Shown in pieces: positions 152-36,574 of a stretch of 38,747 nt of DNA. Position numbers and translations under genes: made by a program. Position 1 is the stretch's first letter; each line of letters starts with the position of its first letter. The DNA is from Candidatus Eisenbergiella stercoravium. Lineage in GTDB: Bacteria > Bacillota > Clostridia > Lachnospirales > Lachnospiraceae. The stretch lies in assembly GCA_019113175.1 (NCBI GenBank), contig DXHY01000086.1:1-38747 (forward strand). The letters are read 5' to 3'. The notes beneath the pieces were generated by a model. That model did no database searches. It had not been told where the DNA came from and saw only the letters and a program-made list of their open reading frames with translations.

Positions 152-793
152 ATGGATATTCTGGTTGAAATTTCTGAAAATTTGCAGAAGGGGAAGGCGA
201 AAATTGTAAAGGAGCTGGTGGGACAGGCCGTGGAGCAGGGCATCCCGGCAAAGGAAGTGCTGGAAAAGGGCCTTCTTGCCGGTATGGACGTGATCGGTGA
301 AAAGTTTAAGAATAACGAGGTGTTCGTGCCGGAGGTTCTGGTGGCGGCCCGCGCCATGAACATGGGCGCTGCGGTGCTGAAGCCTCTGCTTGCCGACGGG
401 GACCAGACCTCTGCCGGAAAGGTCTGCATCGGAACGGTTAAGGGAGATCTGCACGATATCGGCAAGAATCTGGTGAAGATGATGATGGAAGGAAAGGGAC
501 TGGAAGTGGTGGATCTGGGCACGGATGTGTCTCCGGAGACCTATGTGGAGACTGCCGTGAATCAGCACTGCCAGATCATCTGCTGCTCCGCACTCCTTAC
601 CACCACCATGCCCGTCATGGGAGAAGTGGTGAAAGCGGCGGAAAAGGCGGGAATCCGGGATAAAGTGAAAATCATGATCGGAGGAGCTCCGGTAACGGAG
701 GCATTCTGCGAACAGATCGGCGCGGATAAATATACGCCGGACGCTGCCAGCGCCGCGGACGCAGCTGTGGAGCTCTGCAGGGCTGCCGGATGA
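152..793 (+). CDS. Corrinoid (B12-binding) methyltransferase protein, MtbC/MtgC type
   Basis: This 213-aa protein has the two-domain layout of methyltransferase corrinoid proteins. A helical cap fills about residues 1-85, including GMDVIGEKFKNNEVFVPEV, followed by a Rossmann-like cobalamin domain. The B12 signature DxHxxG is present as D99-L-H101-D-I-G104, and SAL at 146-148 and GG at 177-178 match the other cobalamin-contact motifs. The protein should carry a methyl group on cobalt between a substrate methyltransferase and a methyl acceptor. A GGAGG lies about 8 nt before the ATG. A methyltransferase component I (MttB, MtaB or MtvB type) is not in the window and may lie upstream or elsewhere. 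Downstream neighbours supply acceptor-methyltransferase and activator functions. Family assignment is firm; the substrate is unknown. Confidence 0.93.
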   Translation: MDILVEISENLQKGKAKIVKELVGQAVEQGIPAKEVLEKGLLAGMDVIGEKFKNNEVFVPEVLVAARAMNMGAAVLKPLLADGDQTSAGKVCIGTVKGDLHDIGKNLVKMMMEGKGLEVVDLGTDVSPETYVETAVNQHCQIICCSALLTTTMPVMGEVVKAAEKAGIRDKVKIMIGGAPVTEAFCEQIGADKYTPDAASAADAAVELCRAAG

Positions 794-847
794 GAAATGG
801 AAAGATTCCCGCTTAAACGAAGCGCGTGAAAGAAAGGGATGGGAACG

Positions 848-1492
848 ATGGAGGAACTGATGAGGGCTCTGCGGGAGGAGGCGCTTGCGCTCGGAGCCTT
901 TCGCGCGGAACTGGTAAGGGTGGAGGACATTTCCACGGACGCTTCCTTCCGCAGTCTGTGCGCCTCCAACGCCTGCGGCAATTATGGAAAAAATTATATG
1001 TGTCCGCCGGATGTCGGCAGCATCGAGGAGCTGATGCAGGAGCTTCGCACCTATGAAACGGCTCTGGTGTATCAGACGGTGGGCCTCCTGGAGGACAGCT
1101 ATGATTTCGAGGGGATGATGGAAGCGGGAAACCGGCACAACGAGCTTGCGCAGAAGCTTCGAAGCTTTGCAGGGAAAGAGCTGGAACAGAGAAAATGTGC
1201 CAGGGGAAACCGCACGGAGGAAGGATGCGACCGGAAAGGAGCAGGCCAGGGGAGCGGGATCCGGCTGCTTCACCTTGGCGCCGGGGGGTGCCGGGTATGT
1301 ACAACATGCGGAAAACGGAGCGGCGAGCCCTGCCGTTTCCCCGAAAAGGCAATCGGTTCCCTGGAAGCATATGGGGTCAATGTGTCTCTTTTGGCCCGGA
1401 CTGCGGGCATGCGGTACATTAACGGACAGAATACGGTTACCTATTTCGGCGCCATACTCTGCCGTGCGGCTGTGACCGCAGCGACGAATTGA
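848..1492 (+). CDS. DUF2284 predicted metal-binding protein
   Basis: A cysteine-rich protein of about 214 aa. The N-terminal half has a C-x4-C-x8-CPP pattern (around CASNACGNYGKNYMCPP) and the C-terminal half has CRVCTTC followed by GEPCRFPEKAIGSLEAYG, both typical of DUF2284. The family often occurs beside corrinoid methyltransferases and probably binds a metal or Fe-S cluster, but its reaction is not established. An ATG at 839 is in frame, but AAAGGG ends one base before it. The ATG at 848 is about 9 nt from that site and is preferred. The central stretch (about 115-150) reads less like the family than the two ends, so a pair of compensating frame changes is possible but not proven. It lies 54 nt after the corrinoid gene and is likely in the same operon. 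Confidence 0.8.
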   Translation: MEELMRALREEALALGAFRAELVRVEDISTDASFRSLCASNACGNYGKNYMCPPDVGSIEELMQELRTYETALVYQTVGLLEDSYDFEGMMEAGNRHNELAQKLRSFAGKELEQRKCARGNRTEEGCDRKGAGQGSGIRLLHLGAGGCRVCTTCGKRSGEPCRFPEKAIGSLEAYGVNVSLLARTAGMRYINGQNTVTYFGAILCRAAVTAATN

Positions 1493-1544
1493 AGGATCGG
1501 CGCGGGTTCCTCAGCAATGTTTCGGAATGGAGGTAAATTTCAGA

Positions 1545-2549
1545 ATGAATATGAAAGAATGGCTGAAGGAGTTACGGGAGGCAGAACGGAAAAAAGCGAT
1601 GCCAATTCTTTCTTTCCCGGCCGTTCAGCTGATGGGAATCAGCGTGAAGGAGCTGATTTCAGACAGTGACAGACAGGCGGAGGGAATGGTACGGATTGCG
1701 GAAAGGGTGGATGCCGCGGCGTCGGTGAGCCTGATGGATCTGTCGGTGGAAGCGGAGTGCTTTGGATCGCAGATTGTGGTCAGTGAGGACGAAGTGCCTA
1801 CGGTAAAGGGCAGCATCGTAGCCGGCCCGGAGGAGGTGGAAAGCCTTCGGATTCCGCCTGTGGGAGCGGGACGAACGGATATCTATATCGATGCGGTCAG
1901 AAAAGCGGCGGAAAAAATTCAGGACCGGCCCGTATTTGCCGGCATGATCGGCCCCTACTCTCTGGCGGGCCGTCTGCTGGATGTGACGGAAATCATGTTT
2001 TACTGCTATGACGAGCCGGAAATGGTGGCTCTGCTTCTGGATAAGGCCACGGAGTTTCTGATCTCATATGGAAAGGCATATAAGGAGACCGGGGCAGACG
2101 GCATCATGCTGGCGGAGCCTCTGGCTGGTCTGCTGTCTCCCGCACTTGCCGAAGAATTTTCCGCGCCTTTCGTGAAACGGATTGTGGAAGCGCTTCAGGA
2201 TGATGATTTTCTGGTGATTTATCATAACTGCGGGAACAGCACGATTCAGATGATCGACTCCATCCTGGATACGGGGGCAGCGGCGTATCATTTTGGAAAT
2301 GCCATTGACATGGCGGAAATGCTGAAGCATATCCCGGCGGATACGATTGTCATGGGAAATGTGGATCCGGCCGGACAGTTCAGAAACGGAACTCCGGAAA
2401 GCATCCGGACAGCGACGCTTTCACTCATGGAAAAGTGCTGCACATATCCCAACTTTGTGATTTCTTCCGGCTGCGATATCCCTCCCATGTCGAAATGGGA
2501 AAACATTGACGCCTTTTTCCGGGCGGTGGCGGATTTTTATGGAAAATAA
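1545..2549 (+). CDS. Uroporphyrinogen decarboxylase-family (MtaA/CmuA-like) cobalamin methyltransferase
   Basis: This 334-aa TIM-barrel protein belongs to the UroD superfamily. Instead of a haem-pathway role, it shows the zinc-thiol site of methylcobamide methyltransferases: His227-Asn-Cys229 (in VIYHNCGNST) and a distal Cys310 (in VISSGCDIPP). In the MtaA, MtbA and CmuA group this HxC...C zinc site activates the thiol methyl acceptor. It is therefore expected to move a methyl group to or from the corrinoid protein at 152. Clostridia generally lack coenzyme M, so the partner thiol or other acceptor is open. An in-frame ATG exists at 1527, but GGAGG at 1529-1533 points to the start at 1545. 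The 3' end overlaps the next start by 11 nt, indicating translational coupling. Confidence 0.88.
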   Translation: MNMKEWLKELREAERKKAMPILSFPAVQLMGISVKELISDSDRQAEGMVRIAERVDAAASVSLMDLSVEAECFGSQIVVSEDEVPTVKGSIVAGPEEVESLRIPPVGAGRTDIYIDAVRKAAEKIQDRPVFAGMIGPYSLAGRLLDVTEIMFYCYDEPEMVALLLDKATEFLISYGKAYKETGADGIMLAEPLAGLLSPALAEEFSAPFVKRIVEALQDDDFLVIYHNCGNSTIQMIDSILDTGAAAYHFGNAIDMAEMLKHIPADTIVMGNVDPAGQFRNGTPESIRTATLSLMEKCCTYPNFVISSGCDIPPMSKWENIDAFFRAVADFYGK

Positions 2550-4155
2550 AGGATGCACAGAAGAAAAACGGATAAATGAAAGAGCTGCGGAGGAGACCGA
2601 TGTGACGGTAAACGGCAGAATCCTCCGTGCCGCAAAGGGAACGACTCTCGGAGAGCTTTTGAAAAAGGAAGGGCTTGCCATGCCCTGCGCAGGAACGGGG
2701 CGCTGCGGAAAATGCCGGGTCCGCGCGGAGGGCATGCTGAGTGAGCCGGATGCCGTGGAACGGCAAAAGATTTCCGCGCAGGAGCCTGGCAACATCCGTC
2801 TGGCCTGCCGGACCGTGATTCTCGGCCCCTGCCAGGTGGAATGGGAAACGGAAAAGAACATGGAAATCCGGCTTGGCGGCAGGGCTTCCTTCGGAAAGGG
2901 AGAGCCTCTGTTTGACAGGCTGGGAGCGGCGGTGGATGTGGGAACCACCACGCTGGCGGCGCAGCTTTACGGAAAAAGCGGGCTGCTCGCCCAGGCAGGG
3001 CTGGAAAATCCACAGAAGGCCTACGGGGCGGATGTGATATCCAGGGTGGAGAGAAGCCTTGCGGGAGAGGGAGAAGCGCTGAAAAAGGCCGTGTGCGGCG
3101 GGATCGGAACACTGCTTGAGGAGCTCGCGGCCCGCGCGGGCGTTTCGGCGGAGCAGATCGATACGCTTGTGATCACAGGGAATACCTCCATGCTGTACCT
3201 TCTTACGGGCAGAAACCCGGAATGCCTTTCCCATGCGCCCTTTCAGGCAGACTGGCTGGCGGGAGAGTGGACGGACGGAAAGGCTCTCATGCTGCCCTGC
3301 CCGGATGCAGAGGTGTATTTTCCGCCCTGCATCTCTGCCTTCGTTGGGGCGGATATCACCTGCGCCATGCTGCATACCGGTCTGGGGGATGCGGCAGAGC
3401 CGGAGCTTCTTACGGATATCGGAACCAACGGGGAAATTGTGCTGAATCAGGGCGGAGAGCTGTTCTGCTGCTCTACGGCGGCGGGGCCGGCCTTTGAGGG
3501 GGCGGGGTTAAGCTGCGGAATGCCGGGAAAGGAAGGGGCCATCTGCCGTGTGGAATGGAAGGACGGCCGTCTGGAAACCAGCGTGATCGGAGGCGGACCG
3601 GCAAAAGGGATCTGCGGAAGCGGCGTGGTGGATGCCGTCAGCTGCCTGCTGCAGAGCGGATGGCTGGATGAAACCGGCTTTCTGGAAGAAAATGCGGTTC
3701 TGGCGGAAGGGGTGGAGCTTCTTCAGGAGGACATCCGGAAGATCCAGCTTGCCAAGGGGGCCATTTCCGCCGGAATCCGGACCATGCTGCACCGGGCGGA
3801 TCTGCCTGTGGAGGGACTGGCAAAAGTGCTGGTGGCGGGCGGCTTCGGCAGCAGCCTGAATATGAAAAATGCCATTTCCATCGGCCTTCTGCCTGATATG
3901 GATGTGGAGCGGGTTGTGATCTGCGGCAATGCGGCGCTGAATGGAGCGGCGGATCTGCTTCTGGACGGCAGCAGACGGAAGGCGGCGGAGAAGCTTGCAC
4001 GACGGACCGTTACGGTGTCGCTTGCCGCGGATGAATATTTTAAAAACAGCTATATGGAAGGTATGCTGTTCCCGGAATTCATCGTCTGCGGCGTGGATAT
4101 GCCGGAACCGGCCCGGAAGGTGCAGAGTCTTGAAGTGGAGGCGTCCCCGTCGTAA
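2539..4155 (+). CDS. RACo-like reductive activator of corrinoid proteins (2Fe-2S + ASKHA/DUF4445)
   Basis: A protein of about 538 aa. The N-terminal [2Fe-2S] plant-type ferredoxin domain (about 17-105) has cysteines in MPCAGTGRCGKCRV and a fourth in RLACRT. A middle linker is followed by a large ASKHA-type ATPase domain with phosphate-binding segments DVGTTTLAAQ and TDIGTNGEIV and the C-terminal VLVAGGFGSSL. This is the layout of RACo/COG3894, which uses ATP to drive reduction of inactive Co(II) corrinoid to Co(I). It should reactivate the corrinoid protein at 152. The start at 2539 lies inside the end of the preceding gene (ATGGAAAATAA). The longer ORF from 2506 is disfavoured because it adds 11 residues that overlap the preceding gene. 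It is the last gene of the operon before the terminator at 4245. Confidence 0.92.
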   Translation: MENKGCTEEKRINERAAEETDVTVNGRILRAAKGTTLGELLKKEGLAMPCAGTGRCGKCRVRAEGMLSEPDAVERQKISAQEPGNIRLACRTVILGPCQVEWETEKNMEIRLGGRASFGKGEPLFDRLGAAVDVGTTTLAAQLYGKSGLLAQAGLENPQKAYGADVISRVERSLAGEGEALKKAVCGGIGTLLEELAARAGVSAEQIDTLVITGNTSMLYLLTGRNPECLSHAPFQADWLAGEWTDGKALMLPCPDAEVYFPPCISAFVGADITCAMLHTGLGDAAEPELLTDIGTNGEIVLNQGGELFCCSTAAGPAFEGAGLSCGMPGKEGAICRVEWKDGRLETSVIGGGPAKGICGSGVVDAVSCLLQSGWLDETGFLEENAVLAEGVELLQEDIRKIQLAKGAISAGIRTMLHRADLPVEGLAKVLVAGGFGSSLNMKNAISIGLLPDMDVERVVICGNAALNGAADLLLDGSRRKAAEKLARRTVTVSLAADEYFKNSYMEGMLFPEFIVCGVDMPEPARKVQSLEVEASPS

Positions 4156-27307: not shown

Positions 27308-29355
27308 ATGCTCAGAATCAGGGGGATGGAAATCCGGCTGTCCGGGGGAAAGGCCTTCAGGGTCCCGGGAAAAGACCTCTCAGACGGCCGGAGAGAAGAA
27401 AATCAGGAACTCTCGGCGGGCCTTTCCATGATACCGGCCGGAGAGGGAATGGCCGTATTCGTGGAAGTTTCGCTGAAGGAAGGAACTCTGGACGGCGCCT
27501 GTGCGGTCAGACTGGAGCTGGACTTGCCGGAAACAGCCTTCTTGGCGGATTACCGGCATAAAGAATACTGGTGCAGTCCGTTTTTCTGCAAAGGAGCGGA
27601 TGAGATCCCGGATCAGACACAGGCCCTTCTGTGGAAGGAAGGAGAGATGTTCAGGTATCTTCTTCCTGTCTGCAGCGGACAGTATAAGGCGGTAATGAAG
27701 GGGAACTGCCTGCGCCTGGAAAGCGGATACGACGGGCTGTCCGCCTGCAGCGGCCTGGCGTTCGTATGGGGAGAGGGAAAAAATCCGTACCGCCTGGCGG
27801 AACGGGTGACGGAAGCGGCCTTTTCCCTGCTTCCGGGCGGCATGCGGGGCAGAACGGGAAGAAGATACCCGGAAGTGTTTGAGTATCTGGGCTGGTGCAG
27901 CTGGGACGCTTTCCAGATCCGGGTGTCTGAGGAAGGGCTTCTTGCCAAGTGTAAGGAGTTTGCTGAAAAGAAGATTCCGGTCAGGTGGGCGGTGATCGAT
28001 GATATGTGGGAGGATGTGAAAGACCTTTATGATCTGGAAAAACCGGATTATGAGACAGTGTTTGAAAACAGGCATAATACCAAACTGGCATCCTTCGAAG
28101 CGGACCCGTACCGCTTTCCCGGAGGGCTTGCCCGCTGCGTGAGGAGGATGAAGGAAGAGTGCGGGATACAGGCCGGAGTCTGGCACACCATAAACGGTTA
28201 CTGGAAGGCGTGGATGAAACCGGGAAGCTGGCTGAGGAATATCAGGACTGCCTGATGAAGGGAAGCAGCGGCCAGCTGGTGCCGGACTGGCACTTTGAAA
28301 AAGCCTTCCGGTATTATGAGGGGTGGCACCGCTTCCTGAAGGAGTGCGGGGTGGCGTTTGTCAAGATCGACAACCAGAGCACGCTGGAAAGAAATTATGG
28401 AGGAAAGGCGCCGATTGGAGAAGTGGCGGAGAATCTCCACAAAGCCATCGAGGCTTCTACCGGCCTGTATTTTGACCAGGCGGTGATCAACTGCATGGGA
28501 ATGGCCGGAGAAAACATGTGGAACCGTCCAGCCACCGCGGTATCCCGGTGCAGCGACGATTTCCTGCCGGAGAACCGGGAGTGGTTTACAAAGCATATCC
28601 TGCAGTGCTCGTACAATTCGCTGGTGCAGGGGAATTTTCTGTGGTGCGACTGGGATATGTGGTGGACCTCAGACGGACAGGCGTTAAAGAACAGCCTGCT
28701 GAGGGCGGTGAGCGGAGGTCCGGTATACGTGAGCGACCGTCTTGGAGAGAGCAGGAAGGAGATTCTGGAGCCGCTGGTGCTTTCTGATGGAAGGGTGTTA
28801 AGATGTGACAGGCCGGGAGTGCCGGCGGCGGACTGCCTGCTGGAGGACCCGGTGGAAAGCGGGAAACCGTTCAAGGTATACAGCACCTGTGGAAACAGCG
28901 CTGCGGTGGCGGTGTTCAACCTGGATGAAAGGGAAAAGCCGGTGGAAGGAAGCCTTGGAACGCAGGAGCTGGAAATGGAGGAGACAAAAGTCCTCGCCTG
29001 GGAAAGCCTTTCCGGTGGATGGAAGGTTCTGGAAAAAGGGGAAAGAGAAGCCATACGTCTTGAGAACCGCGATGATTTCCGGTTTTACCTGATGATACCG
29101 CTGGAAGAAGGATTCACGCCGGTGGGTCTGAAGGAAAAGTGGATCGCTCCGAAAACAATAGAAGGAAGGAACGGGAACACGGTTATTCTGAAGGAGGGAG
29201 GAACGTTCCTGTTTTACAGCGATCAGAAGATCAGTCATGCGGTTGTTAATGGAAGAGAGGAAAAGGTGTCGAATGAGAAAGCGCCTCTCTATGAGATCTG
29301 CTGTGAAACAGACGGCCCATGGTCTGTGAGCATTTTTCAGCGGGCGGAAGATTGA
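27308..29355 (+). pseudogene. Sip1/raffinose-synthase-type (GH36-like) alpha-galactosidase, single-base frameshift
   Basis: It starts at 27308 behind GGAGG. The first frame (to a TGA at 28253-28255) gives YLGWCSWDAFQIRVSEEGLL, WAVIDDMWED and GVWHTINGYW. The overlapping second frame carries on with GVDETGKLAEEYQ, AFVKIDNQS (nucleophile Asp), SRCSDDF (acid/base Asp) and LWCDWDMWWTSD. Joined, they form a full protein of about 680 aa of the Sip1/raffinose synthase group of clan GH-D. One base is missing at 28203-28208 (TGGAAGGC); TGG-AAR-GGC would restore it. Either the gene has just decayed or the sequence has an indel error. No signal peptide, so likely cytoplasmic cleavage of alpha-galactosides. 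Confidence 0.85.
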
Positions 29356-29376
29356 TGCCTGGAAATGGAGGAAACG

Positions 29377-30606
29377 ATGAAAGATTATGTGACGGAAAGC
29401 TCCCATAAGCTTTCGATTGCGTATGAGCCGGACGTTCTTATAGCAGGAGGCGGGATTGCCGGTGTTGCAGCCGCTCTCGCCGCTGCAAGGAACGGCGCAA
29501 CAGTTCTTCTGGTAGAAAAGCAGTGTATGGTTGGGGGACTGGCAACCTCCGGCCTGGTGGCGGAATATCTTCCGCTGTGTGATGGAATGGGGCATCAGGT
29601 GTGTTTTGGAATCGCGGAAGAGCTGCTCCGCCTTTCCCTGGAGTCCGGCGCAAAGCAGCCGATTCCCACCGCATGGCTTCAGGACGTTCCCGGGGAAGAG
29701 AGAAAAAAGATGCGTTATCGCGTTCAGTTTAATCCGCATCATTTTGCCCTTCTGCTGGAGCAGCGGCTGCTCAGGGAAAAGGTTCAGCTTTTATACGATA
29801 CGAGGATCTGCGCGGCTCTATGCCGGGATCAGCGCATTGAATATCTGGTTGCGGAAAACCGGAGCGGTAGATTTGCCATAAAGGCAAAAACATATGTGGA
29901 CGCCACAGGCGATGCGCTGTTGTATGAACTGGCAGGCCTTCCGGTCAGAACATTTTCAAAAGGTAATATACTGGCAGGCTGGTATTACTTCTTTGATGGG
30001 AAAAAGGTAAATCTCAGACCGCTGGGATTTGCGGAAGTATTTGACGGGAGCAAAAAAGAAAATGTCAGACCGCTGGCCGACAGAAGATTTTCCGGTACAA
30101 GTGGTGAAGATATCACGGATTTTCTCCTTCTGTCTCACCAGGCCATTCTGGATGATATCAGAGAAAGAAAGGAGTCCGGAGGAAATCCGGATCTGGAACT
30201 TACCACGATTGCCGGAATGCCGCAGCTGCGGATGATCCGCTGTATCGAAGGAGAATACTGCCTGAAGGAGACGGAAAATGAGGTCTGCTTTCCTGACAGC
30301 ATAGGAATGACAGGGGACTGGAGAAAGAGCGGTATGAGATATGAAATCCCATACCGCGCCTTATATAACAGTGCCCTTCGTAATGCAATTTGTGCAGGAA
30401 GATGTATCAGCGTGGACGATGGCATGTGGGACATCTCCCGGGTGATTCCGCCCTGTGTGGTGACTGGGGAAGCGGCAGGAACGGCAGCGGCCCTGGCGGA
30501 GGATTTCCACACGCTGTCCTATGATAAGCTTGCGGAAAGGCTGGAAGCGCAGGGCCAGAAGCTGAAAATTTCCCAGGTGTCTACAGACTCAGCTCAGCTC
30601 TCTTGA
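29377..30606 (+). CDS. FAD-dependent oxidoreductase (PF12831-type)
   Basis: A protein of about 409 aa. The N-terminal dinucleotide fold is DVLIAGGGIAGVAAALAAARNGATVLLVEK, followed by MVGGLATSGLVAEY, typical of the FAD_oxidored family. A second FAD-contact segment, TYVDATGDALLYELAG, lies in the middle, and CAGRCISVDDGMWDISRVIPPCVVTGEAAGTAAALA lies near the C-terminus. Reactions in this family are mostly unknown; the members are common in plant-glycan loci. An ATG at 29365 is in frame, but the GGAGG inside that codon run serves the ATG at 29377. It lies 21 nt after the alpha-galactosidase gene. Its 3' end overlaps the convergent glycyl radical enzyme gene by 26 bp. Confidence 0.87.
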   Translation: MKDYVTESSHKLSIAYEPDVLIAGGGIAGVAAALAAARNGATVLLVEKQCMVGGLATSGLVAEYLPLCDGMGHQVCFGIAEELLRLSLESGAKQPIPTAWLQDVPGEERKKMRYRVQFNPHHFALLLEQRLLREKVQLLYDTRICAALCRDQRIEYLVAENRSGRFAIKAKTYVDATGDALLYELAGLPVRTFSKGNILAGWYYFFDGKKVNLRPLGFAEVFDGSKKENVRPLADRRFSGTSGEDITDFLLLSHQAILDDIRERKESGGNPDLELTTIAGMPQLRMIRCIEGEYCLKETENEVCFPDSIGMTGDWRKSGMRYEIPYRALYNSALRNAICAGRCISVDDGMWDISRVIPPCVVTGEAAGTAAALAEDFHTLSYDKLAERLEAQGQKLKISQVSTDSAQLS

Positions 30607-32656
30607 TGATGTGGTCCTGGTAATCCTTATCCAGTTCCACAAAGTAGCCGCTCCATCCCCAGACGCGCACGATCAGGTTCCTGTATTTCTCCGGATGCTT
30701 CTGCGCGTCAAGCATGGTATCCCGGTTGACGGAATTGAGCTGAAGCTGATGGCCGCCCAGATCTACAAAGGATTTGACCAGTGCGGCGACCTTGGAGATG
30801 CTTTCCTCATTGCGGAACAGGGTATCATGCAGCTCCAGCGTCAGGGGTCCTCCGTTTATGACTTCGCTCAGCTCCGGCTTTGTGAAGGATTTTACAATGG
30901 AAACGGGCCCCTTGTTTCTTGCGAACAGGCTGGGAGAATAGTTGCAGGCAAAGCCTTCGCCGGCCCGGCGGCCGTCCGGAGTAGCTCCCAGATCGCGGGA
31001 AAACCACAGATAATACATGGCGGAACCGGTCCCTGCCCGGAAGCAGCCGCCTCTTTCGTTCCGGCGTCCCTTCAGGGATTCCGAAAAGGCATGCAGAAGA
31101 TCTGATGCGATGGAATCCGCCAGGGGATCATTATTCCCCATCTTGGGCGCTTCGTAGCGCAGGAGATGAAGCAGGTGGTCATATCCTTCAAAATCCTTTT
31201 CCATGGCATCCAGCAGGTCCGTGTGGGACACCTCACCGGTATCAAAGATATATTTCTTTACCGCAGCCAGGGAGTCTGCCGCTGTGGAAAGGCCTGCGCC
31301 GTGGAAGCCGTAATTGTTGTATACACAGCCGAGAGAGACATCTTTTCCCTTTTCCACGCAGCTTTCCATCATCAGGGAAAGGAAGGGAGAGGGGTAAATA
31401 TAAAGATTTTTCGTGTTTTCACACATCTGATCCACCCGGCTGCGGATTTCCGCCTTTACCTGATCCCAGACCGACTCATAGTCAGGCGCCTGCGGAAGAG
31501 CGCGGACGATGACGTCTCTCACTACCTGGGCAAAGCAGAGTGCGTCGATATTTGGAATCTCCATGCCTTTGCCGGGGATGATGAACTCCCAGCAGGCCGC
31601 CACGGCATAATCTCTGGCATCTTCTGTCCTGTATCCAAGCCTTTCCAGACCGGGAATGACTACGTCGTCATTGGAATACTGAGGAAAGCCGAGTCCCTGT
31701 TTGGTCAGTCTGGTTCCCAGCTCATAAATGGAAAGAGGCGTATCTTTATTGACTCGGAGGTTGATTTTGGGATCGATGAGCTTCAGCTCCAGGCTTGCCT
31801 GAAGGCAGAGCGCGGAAAGCCGGCTGAAGCCATCCTTTCCATCCGGCGTGAGGCCTCCGAGCACCATGCTCTGGCCGTTATCTCCCTGCTGCATGCCGGG
31901 GTAGAGATCACTGTCTATGTTAAAGGTAAGAAAATATTCTTCCAGAAGCTCCAGAGCGGATTCTTCCGTCAGCCGCCCACTTTCCAGATCCTTCTGAAAC
32001 CAGGGAAGCATATACTGGTCAAAGCGTCCCAGTGTATTGTGGTAGCTGCCGGAAAGCCACATGGTAAAGTGCATGATTCTCTGCATCTGCAGAGCATCCT
32101 GCAGTGTTTCCGGGGCGTTTCCCAGCAGGCGGGAAAGACGCTCTGCGATTTCCGTAAGTCCCTGTCTGCGGGCTTCCTGGCTGTAGCGCAGGATCAGATC
32201 CGTCATGGCATCCAGAATTTCCAGCTCCCCGTTCAGATATTCCGCTTCGGAGAGCTTTCCCTGTGTCAGAAATTCCCTTTCCTGTTCCTCCACACGCCGG
32301 CGCATGCCCGCAAATCCAAGGGTGAGAAAACGGCTGTAATCCACGCAGATGTTGGACAGCTCGCCGGATTCGTGCAGGCGGTGATGCATGGTGATCTCCT
32401 CCTTTTCTTCCGGAGTAAAAAGCGCCTGCAGAGTAGGATTGGTGCGCACAAATGCGATGGTCTGGTCAGGGAAAAAGGCCGGAGTTTCTTCGTTCAGCAT
32501 ATAGACCAGGCGCTTTACGGCGCGTCTGGTATCGCAAAGTCCCTCCTTTTCAAAGGTGCGGGCCAGAAGAAACTCATCGGAGGCAGCCTTCCGGCAGGTC
32601 CGGTGTCCATGATTCTCCACGAAAAATTTTCTCAGTCTGCTGATTCGTTCTGTCAT
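30581..32656 (-). CDS. Glycyl radical enzyme of unknown substrate (PFL-like family)
   Basis: A 691-aa member of the pyruvate formate-lyase superfamily. The thiyl-radical site is Cys355 with Glu357 in AVAACWEFI, the CxE arrangement of dehydratase/lyase-type glycyl radical enzymes, where PFL itself has adjacent Cys-Cys. The glycyl radical is expected at Gly667 in RVWGWSGYFVELD, 24 residues from the end. Most characterised relatives read RVxGYSxxF, so two Trp here are unusual. The protein is shorter than the characterised dehydratases (about 780-850 aa), mostly at the N-terminus. It is made after its activase with an ATGA overlap, under a perfect promoter and LacI-type operators. The neighbouring arabinofuranosidases suggest a sugar- or polyol-derived substrate. 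Confidence 0.9.
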   Translation of the reverse strand: MTERISRLRKFFVENHGHRTCRKAASDEFLLARTFEKEGLCDTRRAVKRLVYMLNEETPAFFPDQTIAFVRTNPTLQALFTPEEKEEITMHHRLHESGELSNICVDYSRFLTLGFAGMRRRVEEQEREFLTQGKLSEAEYLNGELEILDAMTDLILRYSQEARRQGLTEIAERLSRLLGNAPETLQDALQMQRIMHFTMWLSGSYHNTLGRFDQYMLPWFQKDLESGRLTEESALELLEEYFLTFNIDSDLYPGMQQGDNGQSMVLGGLTPDGKDGFSRLSALCLQASLELKLIDPKINLRVNKDTPLSIYELGTRLTKQGLGFPQYSNDDVVIPGLERLGYRTEDARDYAVAACWEFIIPGKGMEIPNIDALCFAQVVRDVIVRALPQAPDYESVWDQVKAEIRSRVDQMCENTKNLYIYPSPFLSLMMESCVEKGKDVSLGCVYNNYGFHGAGLSTAADSLAAVKKYIFDTGEVSHTDLLDAMEKDFEGYDHLLHLLRYEAPKMGNNDPLADSIASDLLHAFSESLKGRRNERGGCFRAGTGSAMYYLWFSRDLGATPDGRRAGEGFACNYSPSLFARNKGPVSIVKSFTKPELSEVINGGPLTLELHDTLFRNEESISKVAALVKSFVDLGGHQLQLNSVNRDTMLDAQKHPEKYRNLIVRVWGWSGYFVELDKDYQDHIIKRAELSL

Positions 32657-33534
32657 AATATAACACTCCTTATTTTATATTTTTCAAAAATATGTTCCGG
32701 TATCTGAAGCGGGGCGGAGGTGTCGAACTCCGGACGGTATTCCATGCCCACCATACTGTATTTTGCACCCGCGGTCTGGTGGTAGGGGAGCAGCTCTACA
32801 CGAAGCAGGGAAGGGGCCCCGGACAGGAAGGCGGCAGTCTGCTCCAGGTTTTCCTCCGTGTTATTCACTCCGGGAATCAGGGGAATACGGACCACAAATT
32901 CCTTCTTCCCCCGGCAGAGACGGGTGAGATTTTCCAGAATGATCCGGTTGTCTGCCCCTGTATAGTGGCGGTGAAGCGCAGGGTCCATCAGCTTTACGTC
33001 CATCATGATGAAGGACAGACGGTCCGTCACTGCCTGAAAAAGATCGGACGGAGCATAAGCGGAGGTTTCAATGGCCGTATGCAGATCCGGAATCTGATCC
33101 AGTACCTCAAGAAGAAACTCTCCCTGCATCAGAGGTTCTCCGCCGGAAAAGGTGACGCCGCCTCCCAGTGCGGTATAGTAGTCGCTGTTTTCCCGGATGA
33201 GGCTTACCAGCTCCCGGGAAGACATTTTCTTCCCGCTGATCTGACGCATCCCGAGAGGACAGACCTCCACACAGGCTCCACAGGCTGTGCAGCCTTCGGG
33301 AGAAGCCGGGGCATGAATCTCCTTCTGTTCGGTAAGGGGGCAGACCTGCCGGCATTTTCCGCAGCTGCTGCAGGAGCTCCGGCTGAACATGAGCTGCGGC
33401 TTCGCGGAAAGTCCTTCCGGATTATGACACCACTGACAGCGCAGAGGGCAGCCCTTGAAAAAAACGGTCTGCCTTACGCCCGGTCCGTCATGAACGGCAA
33501 ATTCCTTTACATCAAAAATGGTTCCTGATTTCAT
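32653..33534 (-). CDS. Glycyl radical enzyme activating protein (radical SAM)
   Basis: A 293-aa activase. The radical-SAM cluster motif is C29-x3-C33-x2-C36 in FKGCPLRCQWCHNPEG. It is followed by a ferredoxin-like insert with two CxxCxxCxxxC clusters (CSSCGKCRQVC near 55-65 and CTACGACVEVC near 83-93), and then the SAM-binding GGG/GGEP segments GGGVTFSGGEPL. This form with extra clusters activates dehydratase-type glycyl radical enzymes by abstracting H from the target glycine. It is the first gene of the minus-strand operon; its last four bases (ATGA) overlap the start of the glycyl radical enzyme. The leader contains a GTCTGT/ACAGAC hairpin (33570-33585). Confidence 0.94.
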   Translation of the reverse strand: MKSGTIFDVKEFAVHDGPGVRQTVFFKGCPLRCQWCHNPEGLSAKPQLMFSRSSCSSCGKCRQVCPLTEQKEIHAPASPEGCTACGACVEVCPLGMRQISGKKMSSRELVSLIRENSDYYTALGGGVTFSGGEPLMQGEFLLEVLDQIPDLHTAIETSAYAPSDLFQAVTDRLSFIMMDVKLMDPALHRHYTGADNRIILENLTRLCRGKKEFVVRIPLIPGVNNTEENLEQTAAFLSGAPSLLRVELLPYHQTAGAKYSMVGMEYRPEFDTSAPLQIPEHIFEKYKIRSVIL

Positions 33535-33619: not shown

Positions 33620-33648
33620 ATAACATTAACGTTAATGTTATCGATAAC
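33620..33648. promoter_or_regulatory. Overlapping LacI-type operators at the glycyl radical operon promoter
   Basis: A perfect 22-bp palindrome spans 33620-33641 with core CATTAACGTTAATG. A second perfect palindrome, GTTATCGATAAC, spans 33637-33648. Both have the central CG typical of LacI-family sites and their centres are 12 bp apart. They lie immediately downstream of the minus-strand -10 box, where bound repressor would block initiation. The divergent lacI gene is the natural source of the regulator. The 14-bp core of the first site recurs at 35044-35057. Confidence 0.8.
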
Positions 33649-33839: not shown

Positions 33840-33961
33840 GGAGGCGCACGAACCGGCGGTTTGTGCAGAAGAATGGACGGTACCATTCTCTTTGTAAAAA
33901 ATACTGCCCTTCGGCGGCAGGAAAGGAGGCGCACGGACCCGGCGGTTCGTGCTGAAGGATG
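33840..33961 (+). repeat. Duplicated Shine-Dalgarno/hairpin/start-codon module in the lacI leader
   Basis: Copy A (33840-33876) and copy B (33925-33962) share order and most bases. In copy A, GGAGG (33840-33844), a hairpin (GCACGAACC/GGTTTGTGC, 33846-33866), 6 nt and ATGG follow in order. In copy B, GGAGG (33925-33929), a hairpin (GCACGGACC/GGTTCGTGC, 33931-33952), 6 nt and ATGG follow. Folding the hairpin leaves exactly 7 unpaired bases between GGAGG and ATG in both. Copy A starts a 38-codon frame, copy B starts lacI. A CTGCC/GGCAG hairpin (33904-33920) and the GAATGG/CCATTC arms (33871-33888) lie within or between the copies. Confidence 0.7.
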
Positions 33962-33989
33962 GCACAGAGAAAAAAAAGCGGAAGCGTGA
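33873..33989 (+). CDS. Possible 38-aa upstream ORF overlapping the lacI start
   Basis: Starts at the ATG of module copy A and ends in TGA at 33987-33989, 31 nt inside lacI in another frame. The peptide begins MDGTILFVKNTALRRQ and is Arg-rich, with no known family. Ribosomes translating it would unfold the copy B hairpin and could couple translation to lacI. It may instead be only a by-product of the duplication. Confidence 0.3.
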   Translation: MDGTILFVKNTALRRQERRRTDPAVRAEGWHREKKAEA

Positions 33990-34978
33990 CATTGAAGGAT
34001 ATTGCCGCCGCTACAGGATTTTCCGCAAATACGGTTTCCAGAGCACTGGCGGACAAATCCGATATATCGGAGGAAACCAAAGAGGTAATCCGGAAGAAGG
34101 CCGAAGAGATGGGATACATTGCAAACGCTCTGGCCAGCTTTCTTCGTTCCGGAGTCAGCAGGAATATTTCCATCATTGTGGGTGATATTTCCAATCCCCA
34201 CTTTTCCGTTATGGTGAAGGAAATGCAGATGCTGCTGCAAAAAAAGGGATATAATTCCATTATTTTTAATACGGAGGAAAATCCTGAAATGGAGCGTCAG
34301 GCGGTTACGGTTTCCATCAGCCAGAACGTGGACGGAATCATTATCTGTCCGGCTCCGGGAGGAGAGGCCAACATCGGGCTGCTCCGGCATTATGGGAAGC
34401 CCTTTGTACTGATCGGAAGAAGGCTGGAGGAAGAAACCAGCTACGTCATCTGCGACGATGAGAACAGCGGTTATCTTGCGGCCTGCTATCTGATGGATAT
34501 GGGGCACAGGGAGATCCTGTTTCTGAACGGGCCGAAGGGGATTTCCAGCGCGGCAGAGCGTCTTTCGGGTTATCGCCGTGCACTGAGGGAAAGAGGGATT
34601 CCCTATAACGGACGGCTGGTTCATACGGTGCCTGTTACGGCGGGAAAGGGAACGGAACGGATGCGCAGGGCCCTGGCGGGAGAGCAGCATTATACAGCGG
34701 TTCTGGCGTTCAGCGATATTCTGGCCTGGCAGGCAGTCTGCATTCTGGAGGAGCTGGGGAAAAAAGTGCCGGATGACTGTTCCGTTATCGGATTCGACAA
34801 TATCCGTTTCACCTACCCGCGCCGGCTCACCTCAATTTCCTCTTCCAAAACCACCATGGCCAGAAAGTGCGCGGGAATTCTTCTTGGACAGCTGGAAGGA
34901 AAGGCCGGCCGGAAGGAGCAGATCGTTCTGGAAACCGGGATCGTACAGGGGGATACGGTGAGAAGGATCAGAAAATAA
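33959..34978 (+). CDS. LacI family transcriptional regulator
   Basis: A 339-aa protein. The N-terminal HTH is VTLKDIAAATGFSANTVSRALADKSDIS, the hinge helix is ANALASFLRSG, and a periplasmic-binding-protein-like effector domain follows (SIIVGDISNPHFSVM, DGIIICPAPG, FVLIGRR, VIGFDNIRFTY). It probably represses both the divergent glycyl radical operon and its own downstream glycosidases, because the same palindrome core occurs at both places. The effector is likely an arabinose- or glycan-derived sugar. At 33959 the only close purine run touches the ATG; a GGAGG 30 nt upstream is brought to 7-nt spacing by a hairpin. A GTG at 33985 would cut the HTH leader and is less likely. Confidence 0.92.
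   Translation: MAQRKKSGSVTLKDIAAATGFSANTVSRALADKSDISEETKEVIRKKAEEMGYIANALASFLRSGVSRNISIIVGDISNPHFSVMVKEMQMLLQKKGYNSIIFNTEENPEMERQAVTVSISQNVDGIIICPAPGGEANIGLLRHYGKPFVLIGRRLEEETSYVICDDENSGYLAACYLMDMGHREILFLNGPKGISSAAERLSGYRRALRERGIPYNGRLVHTVPVTAGKGTERMRRALAGEQHYTAVLAFSDILAWQAVCILEELGKKVPDDCSVIGFDNIRFTYPRRLTSISSSKTTMARKCAGILLGQLEGKAGRKEQIVLETGIVQGDTVRRIRK

Positions 34979-36574
<1,596 letters not shown>

Follow-up and report, generated by a model that had tools for sequence, protein, structure and literature searches.

The 38,747-nucleotide stretch of DNA analysed here (the window), which is contig 21 of the 4.1-Mb genome of Candidatus Eisenbergiella stercoravium, encodes an oxygen-sensitive glycyl radical enzyme (GRE) and its activase next to genes for a LacI-family regulator and two glycoside hydrolases of arabinofuranosidase families. 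GREs catalyse several of the most consequential reactions in the anoxic gut; only a few of their functions have been established. Our analysis reveals that this GRE belongs to a real and widespread, apparently uncharacterised subfamily, that it shares an upstream palindrome with one of the arabinofuranosidase genes, and that it may strip oxygen from arabinose or a close derivative.

Gene anatomy and a palindrome shared with GH51

The features on which the argument rests are the following (positions in the window).

30581..32656, minus strand: GRE, 691 amino acids (aa); C355-W356-E357, and G667 in RVWGWSGYF
32653..33534, minus strand: GRE-activating radical SAM enzyme, 293 aa; TIGR02494, Pfam Radical_SAM and Fer4
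33620..33641, no strand: operator 1, a perfect 22-bp palindrome between the activase and LacI genes; ATAACATTAACGTTAATGTTAT
33959..34978, plus strand: LacI-family regulator, the probable reader of the operator; Pfam LacI 3.9e-12, Peripla_BP_3 1.7e-26
35043..35058, no strand: operator 2, upstream of GH51; GCATTAACGTTAATGT
35078..36574, plus strand: GH51 alpha-L-arabinofuranosidase, ArfA-like; NF051901, PF06964
36582..38558, plus strand: GH127 beta-L-arabinofuranosidase family; PF07944 3e-81

The start of the GRE open reading frame (ORF) and the end of the activase ORF share 4 nt, and the LacI, GH51 and GH127 genes diverge from this pair. The activase passes the cut-off of TIGR02494 (PFLE_PFLC subfamily; 308.8 versus 174.35 bits) and is predicted to install the radical on G667. 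The likely start of GH51 is the ATG at 35078, preceded by AGGAGG; scored on a longer ORF from 34988, the protein reaches 773.4 bits with NF051901 against a cut-off of 625.

Operator 1 lies upstream of the activase-GRE pair, and the 14-bp core of its palindrome recurs, as operator 2, 19 nt upstream of the GH51 start. The exact core is found at two places only in the genome, these two, both in the window. Allowing two mismatches adds two further places, and at that setting the reversed pattern gives 12 matches per strand, so that only exact or near-exact copies are meaningful. The palindrome is therefore common to the GRE and to an arabinosidase gene, as expected of an arabinoside regulon under LacI control: the LacI protein would bind it, the genes for the GRE, its activase and the arabinofuranosidases would stay repressed until an inducer related to arabinose caused the repressor's release, and the GRE is probably switched on together with the arabinose-releasing genes. 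The original prediction had the operator shared with GH51 and GH127 alike; this holds for GH51, whereas GH127 is included merely because it is the next gene, its ORF starting 7 nt after the end of GH51. The host genome has five GH127 genes in all.

On the other side of the GRE, a convergent gene for an FAD-dependent oxidoreductase (29365-30606) overlaps the 3' end of the GRE gene with its own 3' end by 26 nt. The absence of the usual GRE partners, which had been noted earlier, is borne out among the 30 window ORFs covered by our Pfam scan (the remaining ORFs lay outside it), whose matches include no aldehyde dehydrogenase, microcompartment or proline-pathway family. At the far end of the window, consecutive plus-strand genes for a corrinoid-binding protein, a DUF2284 protein, a URO-D-type protein and a RACo-like reactivase (152-4155) suggest a candidate corrinoid demethylation system.

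The enzyme and its clade

The GRE carries both domains of its superfamily, PF02901 (PFL-like, 1.3e-99) and PF01228 (Gly_radical, 7.6e-19), and alignment places C355/E357 and G667 in register with C434-V-E436 and G765 of a hydroxyproline dehydratase (HypD); the catalytic residues are thus intact, as had been claimed. C355-W356-E357 is an instance of the CXE motif of GRE eliminases, whose Glu is proposed (PMC7077986) to deprotonate a substrate hydroxyl. An AlphaFold model built from 12 input sequences (pLDDT 86.7, pTM 0.87) has glycerol dehydratase (PDB 1r8w; TM 0.88 by query length), PflD, CutC and HypD as its nearest solved folds. Pfam domains, predicted fold and motifs agree, and a GRE eliminase is accordingly the likely function class, with elimination at a C-O, C-N or C-S bond as the predicted activity. 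A pLDDT below 50 over three residues or more is confined to one segment, PGMQQGDNG at residues 253-261, which is nonetheless mostly kept in the clade described below and may therefore be a gating loop.

Two peculiarities set the protein apart. At 691 aa it is shorter than 19 other GREs of the family (785-845 aa), the shortfall against a 790-aa HypD amounting to 20, 40 and 13 residues in blocks 1-100, 100-200 and 200-300, to 6 in 300-434 and to 20 in 434-560. Its radical loop reads RVWGWSGYF, whereas the loop is VAGYS in the five GREs from the PDB that we compared.

No NCBIfam equivalog cut-off for a named GRE function is reached. The bit scores are 311.5 for HypD (NF043068, cut-off 1100), 261.8 for CutC (1050), 265.4 and 267.4 for HpsG/HpfG (1000), 203.9 for indoleacetate decarboxylase (1100), 187.4 for hydroxyphenylacetate decarboxylase (1150) and 93.1 for PFL (994.2); the broader TIGR01774 gives 354.7 against 678.2. 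In a quick tree of 100 rows (LG+G4), which also held four HypD, two other GREs of the family, PflD, YbiW, PflB and two short GREs, the 89 rows related to the window GRE form one group (SH-aLRT 100, stem 0.72). The clustering with a characterised group that had been named beforehand as grounds for abandoning the proposal did not occur, in the tree or by the NCBIfam cut-offs.

The clade occurs in Lachnospiraceae, other Clostridia, Spirochaetota, Bacteroidales and Opitutales, and Eisenbergiella tayi and Diplocloster are examples of cultured bacteria that have it. A record from Candidatus Eisenbergiella merdipullorum is 99% identical to the window GRE over 651 residues; matches are present in 8 of 13 genomes of the genus, one of them a fragment, and (at least 40% identity over at least 580 residues) in 12 of 299 genomes of a family sample that includes the host. 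With the centre genome counted in each, we found matches in at least 2 of 393 genomes of a Bacteroidales-order sample, in at least 20 of 391 of a class sample centred on an Oscillospiraceae genome (two matches each in five of the 20) and in 3 of 296 Spirochaetota genomes, the order and class figures being lower bounds because no more than two candidates per genome were scored, at E <=1e-200. In the contigs of GTDB, a scan confirmed at least 559 relatives among 592 stretches, the best 80 of which all have at least 51% identity in their best segment.

Comparison of 86 clade proteins with 22 other GREs, 17 of them HypD-like, shows how consistently the catalytic loops differ. The Cys and Glu of CXE are kept in all 86 and the radical Gly in 84; Trp356 is likewise universal where other GREs have Val or Ile, Asn102 is universal where 21 of the 22 have His, Trp666 (85/86) stands in place of Ala (21) or Ser (1), and Trp668 (85/86) in place of a Tyr present in 22/22, so that the unusual Trp loop reported earlier proves to be a property of the clade. 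Tyr205, Asp248, Tyr252, Gln256, Asp259, Asp295, Lys297, Asn369, His452, Tyr549 and Glu608 are invariant in 86/86. Y205, N207, Y252, D259, N260 and N369, all conserved, are candidate residues of the substrate pocket. Such near-invariant, clade-specific positions suggest a single reaction for the clade as a whole. We found no report on the clade in the open literature, a search that left subscription journals mostly outside its scope, and the passages of PMC7077986 and PMC11574389 that we consulted contain no sugar-linked GRE with a Trp loop.

Second GREs adjoin some clade members. Two short ones (668 and 659 aa; L199:11792-13798, minus strand, and L205:11496-13475, plus strand) fall far under the NCBIfam cut-offs shown, and the former has a Cys-Cys site without CXE there, a MYGFSEYF loop and an adjoining activase gene. 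At L094:1-5882 the activase and GRE genes are in tandem duplicate, the second GRE ORF (793 aa) being probably of another type, as that genome has one clade match only (E 1e-150).

The operator and gene neighbourhoods across the clade

We compared a first set of 88 clade loci, later extended to 108 (89 of them non-redundant), with 20 non-clade GRE loci as controls. Searched as CATTAWCGWTAATG with at most one mismatch, the operator occurs at 28 of the 108 clade loci (36 sites) and at none of the 20 controls. Five sites at loci without a GRE bring the number to 41; the reversed pattern has 2 in the same DNA (1.89 Mb). Conservation extends to columns that the search did not use (T, A and T, in 33 of the 41 sites each). 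The first 88 loci account for 29 of the sites. In 19 cases an activase, GRE or LacI gene starts no more than 450 bp downstream of the site, and the others stand before an isomerase gene, the gene of a sugar-binding protein, a GH127-family gene or nothing that we could recognise; relatives of the LacI protein stand beside clade GREs that carry the same operator, and at two loci (L071 and L092) the operator is upstream of a GH127-family gene adjoining the GRE.

Whole-genome searches extend the pattern. About 16 of 20 distinct genomes have one or two exact sites, and about two have the reversed pattern (raw counts, 17 of 23 and one site in each of four genomes, with G305/G733, G304/G311 and G309/G310 apparently pairs of the same genome). 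We examined five of the sites away from a GRE. In Gallacutalibacter (L152) the site is flanked by a LacI gene and GH51; another is upstream of GH127 in a Spirochaetaceae genome (L155) and a third upstream of a GH36-like gene in a Clostridia genome (L153). The shared operator constitutes the strongest evidence for a role of the GRE in arabinoside use.

Gene proximity points in the same direction with less force. GH51 or GH127 accompanies the GRE at 31 of 108 clade loci, or 20 of 89 non-redundant ones, versus 1 of 20 controls (Fisher p=0.11), and the count becomes 24/89 versus 1/20 (p=0.04) if GH36-like genes, added after being noticed, are included. The control set is small; its mean length of 18.4 kb, versus 16.7 kb for the first 88 clade loci, introduces no bias toward the clade. 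The GH51/GH127 trait requires at least 13 changes on the tree, so the link recurs in separate lineages, but since proximity is weak when set against the controls, the case rests on the operator. Within the window itself, two overlapping plus-strand ORFs (27308-28255 and 28159-29355) match successive parts of PF05691 (raffinose synthase/GH36-like), as if a single gene had been split by a frame change; unbroken relatives are present near other clade GREs.

The first 88 loci have members of the activase cluster at 78, LacI genes at 29 and RbsA (ribose-type ABC) genes at 23, many of the latter two at Clostridia and Spirochaetota loci. Sugar porters (17/88) and aldose 1-epimerases (10/88) are both absent from the 20 controls. 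In Bacteroidales and Opitutales the activase, GRE and sugar porter lie close together, and several of these loci add GH51, GH127, a GntR regulator or aldose 1-epimerase; the Bacteroidales GntR protein, when examined as AraR, gave helix-turn-helix matches only. Four loci (L064, L066, L073, L106) carry part of a set made up of aldose epimerase, fucose-isomerase-like genes, class II aldolase and FGGY kinase. Cupin genes of the DUF4867/ureidoglycolate-lyase-like type recur near clade GREs (L041, L059, L085, L069).

Several observations weigh against a role in arabinose use. The operator is found at only 25 of the 89 non-redundant loci, and 69 of the 89 have neither GH51 nor GH127 in the DNA fetched; proximity is not significant for the two families together or for either alone (GH51 p=0.21, GH127 p=0.46). 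The check on neighbourhoods in other genomes therefore divides, the glycan link recurring in other phyla and yet being absent from most loci. Two of the five sites examined away from a GRE add nothing to the arabinoside link: one (L151, Hungatella) falls within a predicted ORF, some 1.1 kb ahead of a LacI gene neighbouring GH38, the other (L154, Treponema) within an ORF of no obvious relation, and neither has an arabinosidase. Other sugars are suggested by a GH78 rhamnosidase in L077, a xylose isomerase in L087 and, in L073, a galactose/glucose-binding protein of the MglB type (190.7 bits). The GRE has no downstream catabolic enzyme as a consistent companion, and arabinose has another route in the host, whose L-arabinose isomerase (AraA) is encoded on another contig; as AraA scores over its cut-off in 15 of 32 clade genomes, the host among them, we rejected the idea that the GRE replaces it. 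The radical Gly is Asp in one clade row and a gap in another. Lastly, the His that corresponds to Asn102 lies 2.5 A from the CXE Glu in HypD, according to PMC7077986, and its replacement means that known eliminase chemistry may not carry over.

Candidate reactions and relation to known enzymes

On balance we consider it slightly better than an even chance that the GRE is a dehydratase, breaking a C-O bond by radical elimination, and that its substrate is the L-arabinose which GH51/GH127 release or a C5 compound separated from it by one enzymatic step. An arabinose-related substrate class is probable. The gene anatomy, catalytic motifs, predicted fold, clade and common palindrome are established here, whereas binding of the repressor and its inducer, the particular substrate, the cleavage site, the product and the physiological role are inferred. 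The earlier proposal of a substrate derived from an arabinose-containing glycan is partly supported, by the operator common to GH51 (and, through it, GH127).

In the proposed mechanism the activase would put the radical on G667, from which it would move to C355; C355 would take a hydrogen from a hydroxyl-bearing carbon, E357 would deprotonate that hydroxyl, the adjacent C-O bond would break and the hydrogen would be given back, leaving a deoxygenated C5 carbonyl compound. The step that we rate most likely is the loss of the 2-OH from arabinopyranose, whereby hydrogen abstraction at C1 would yield a 2-deoxy-pentonolactone and abstraction at C3, as in ribonucleotide reductase, a 3-keto-2-deoxy sugar; arabinitol, with the hydrogen abstracted from a terminal carbon, would instead give 2-deoxypentose. 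A sugar ring would find suitable partners in the aromatic residues that both catalytic loops carry. The free-arabinose route needs no reductase and fits two loci (L114, L121) where GRE, sugar porter and mutarotase stand together, as well as the lactonase-family SMP30 where present, whereas the arabinitol route fits DeoC and an aldo-keto reductase (AKR) resembling L-glyceraldehyde 3-phosphate (L-GAP) reductase. The two cannot be chosen between, because the set of DeoC, SMP30, FGGY kinase and alcohol dehydrogenase (ADH) also exists without the GRE (L207, L210). In its boldest and quite tentative form, the proposal would make the clade free-sugar deoxygenases that strip unphosphorylated L-arabinose of its 2-OH in a single radical step, under an operator conserved from Lachnospiraceae to Spirochaetota; if true, this would be a third L-arabinose route in gut and rumen anaerobes, beside the isomerase and oxidative pathways.

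The arabinitol route in full is the strongest rival, though an unlikely one. L-Arabinitol, formed from L-arabinose by an AKR or a Zn-dehydrogenase, would be dehydrated by the GRE to 2-deoxy-L-pentose, after which a XylB-like kinase and deoxyribose-phosphate aldolase would give acetaldehyde and L-GAP, the latter reduced by an AKR resembling L-GAP reductase. The chemistry resembles that of glycerol dehydratase on an open-chain diol, and seven loci at four tree positions (at least 4 changes) combine the GRE with FGGY kinase, DeoC, Zn-dehydrogenase and SMP30 (L067, L069, L038, L077, L096, L116, L199; L077 and L096 on extended fetches). All of these but L199 have an AKR match, the L069 protein falling below the L-GAP reductase cut-off (411.9 versus 448); DeoC passes TIGR00126 in 2 of 2 tested and the FGGY kinase the XylB cut-off in 2 of 3. 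The set need not be downstream of the GRE, however, for it stands without one in Hungatella (L207) and Bacteroides (L210), and it shows no enrichment at the 108 clade loci over the 20 controls (DeoC 6 versus 1, FGGY 9 versus 2, ADH 5 versus 1), which weakens the case for the DeoC module as an obligatory downstream pathway. A search of the host genome for that SMP30, moreover, gave nothing at E 1e-10, and no AKR match appears in the Eisenbergiella or Bacteroidales loci. The GRE-less sets look like a sugar pathway; L209 resembles them, with no DeoC in the DNA viewed.

We regard it as improbable that the true substrate is D-galactose or a derivative, with arabinose entering merely through the equal ring stereochemistry of L-arabinopyranose: the MglB-type protein of L073, aldose 1-epimerase and FBA/GatY-like class II aldolase near clade GREs, and GH36-like PF05691 genes at 6/108 loci versus 0/20 controls would fit, but the operator is common to GH51 and GH127, both arabinofuranosidase families, in Eisenbergiella, Gallacutalibacter and Spirochaetota. 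Slightly more doubtful still is a molecule that accompanies arabinose, either an aglycone (a hydroxyproline derivative, for instance) or a small diol (for instance ethylene glycol) arising later in a pentulose-1-phosphate aldolase route; GH127 can act on hydroxyproline arabinosides and the Cys and Gly loops have three Trp that could form the walls of a small pocket, but the HypD residues are lost, the transporter genes next to the GRE are of the sugar porter and sugar-type ABC kinds, and the aldehyde dehydrogenase and proline families are missing from the scanned window ORFs.

The clade spans several phyla, has Cys and Gly loops unlike those of the GREs compared, and in some members lies in a compact regulon that narrows the substrate to an arabinose-related sugar, making the function directly testable. 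If our preferred reading, an eliminase of arabinose or a C5 relative, is correct, radical deoxygenation of a common dietary sugar would alter the account of how plant-fibre pentoses are fermented.

Known enzymes offer partial models. Class III ribonucleotide reductase, which removes the 2-OH of a pentose ring by radical chemistry, would be the model for one proposed step. PMC7077986 names it as the GRE whose substrate resembles that of HypD; it differs in that no ribonucleotide reductase domain is among the Pfam and NCBIfam matches of our GRE. HypD (PDB 6vxc) shares the CXE motif and the fold (TM 0.89), and proteins of its type rank among the best-matching family members outside the clade, but the eight positions named in PMC7077986 are all changed in the window GRE: R156, H160, D278 and K326 align with G98, N102, N207 and Y252, and S334, D339, Y450 and T645 with N260, a gap, A372 and A546. 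All eight are altered or deleted in the clade. With these substrate-site residues replaced and the profile score so far below its cut-off, HypD function, once entertained as an alternative, is unlikely.

B12-independent glycerol dehydratase (PDB 1r8w) is the top match both by profile (389.3 bits) and, by E-value, by fold, and its CVE aligns with C355-W-E357. It differs in its 787 aa, in an identity of 25% and in a VAGYSA loop where the window GRE has VWGWSG; in the alignment, Asn102 takes the place of the His in its GHVSVDY, and Asn369 that of the Asp 14 residues past its Cys, this His and this Asp being presumably catalytic in the dehydratase. PflD comes second by profile (380.6 bits) and by fold. 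PflD/YbiW structures (8yjo, 8id0, 8id7) are of GREs crystallised with sugar-type ligands; the enzymes reportedly act on anhydrosugars, for which our support is the PDB titles, which name anhydromannitol and anhydroglucitol 6-phosphate. Both E. coli proteins, PflD and YbiW, nevertheless fall outside the clade in the tree, and the clade's Asn, Trp and VWGWSGYF replace the His, Val and VAGYSAFF of PflD.

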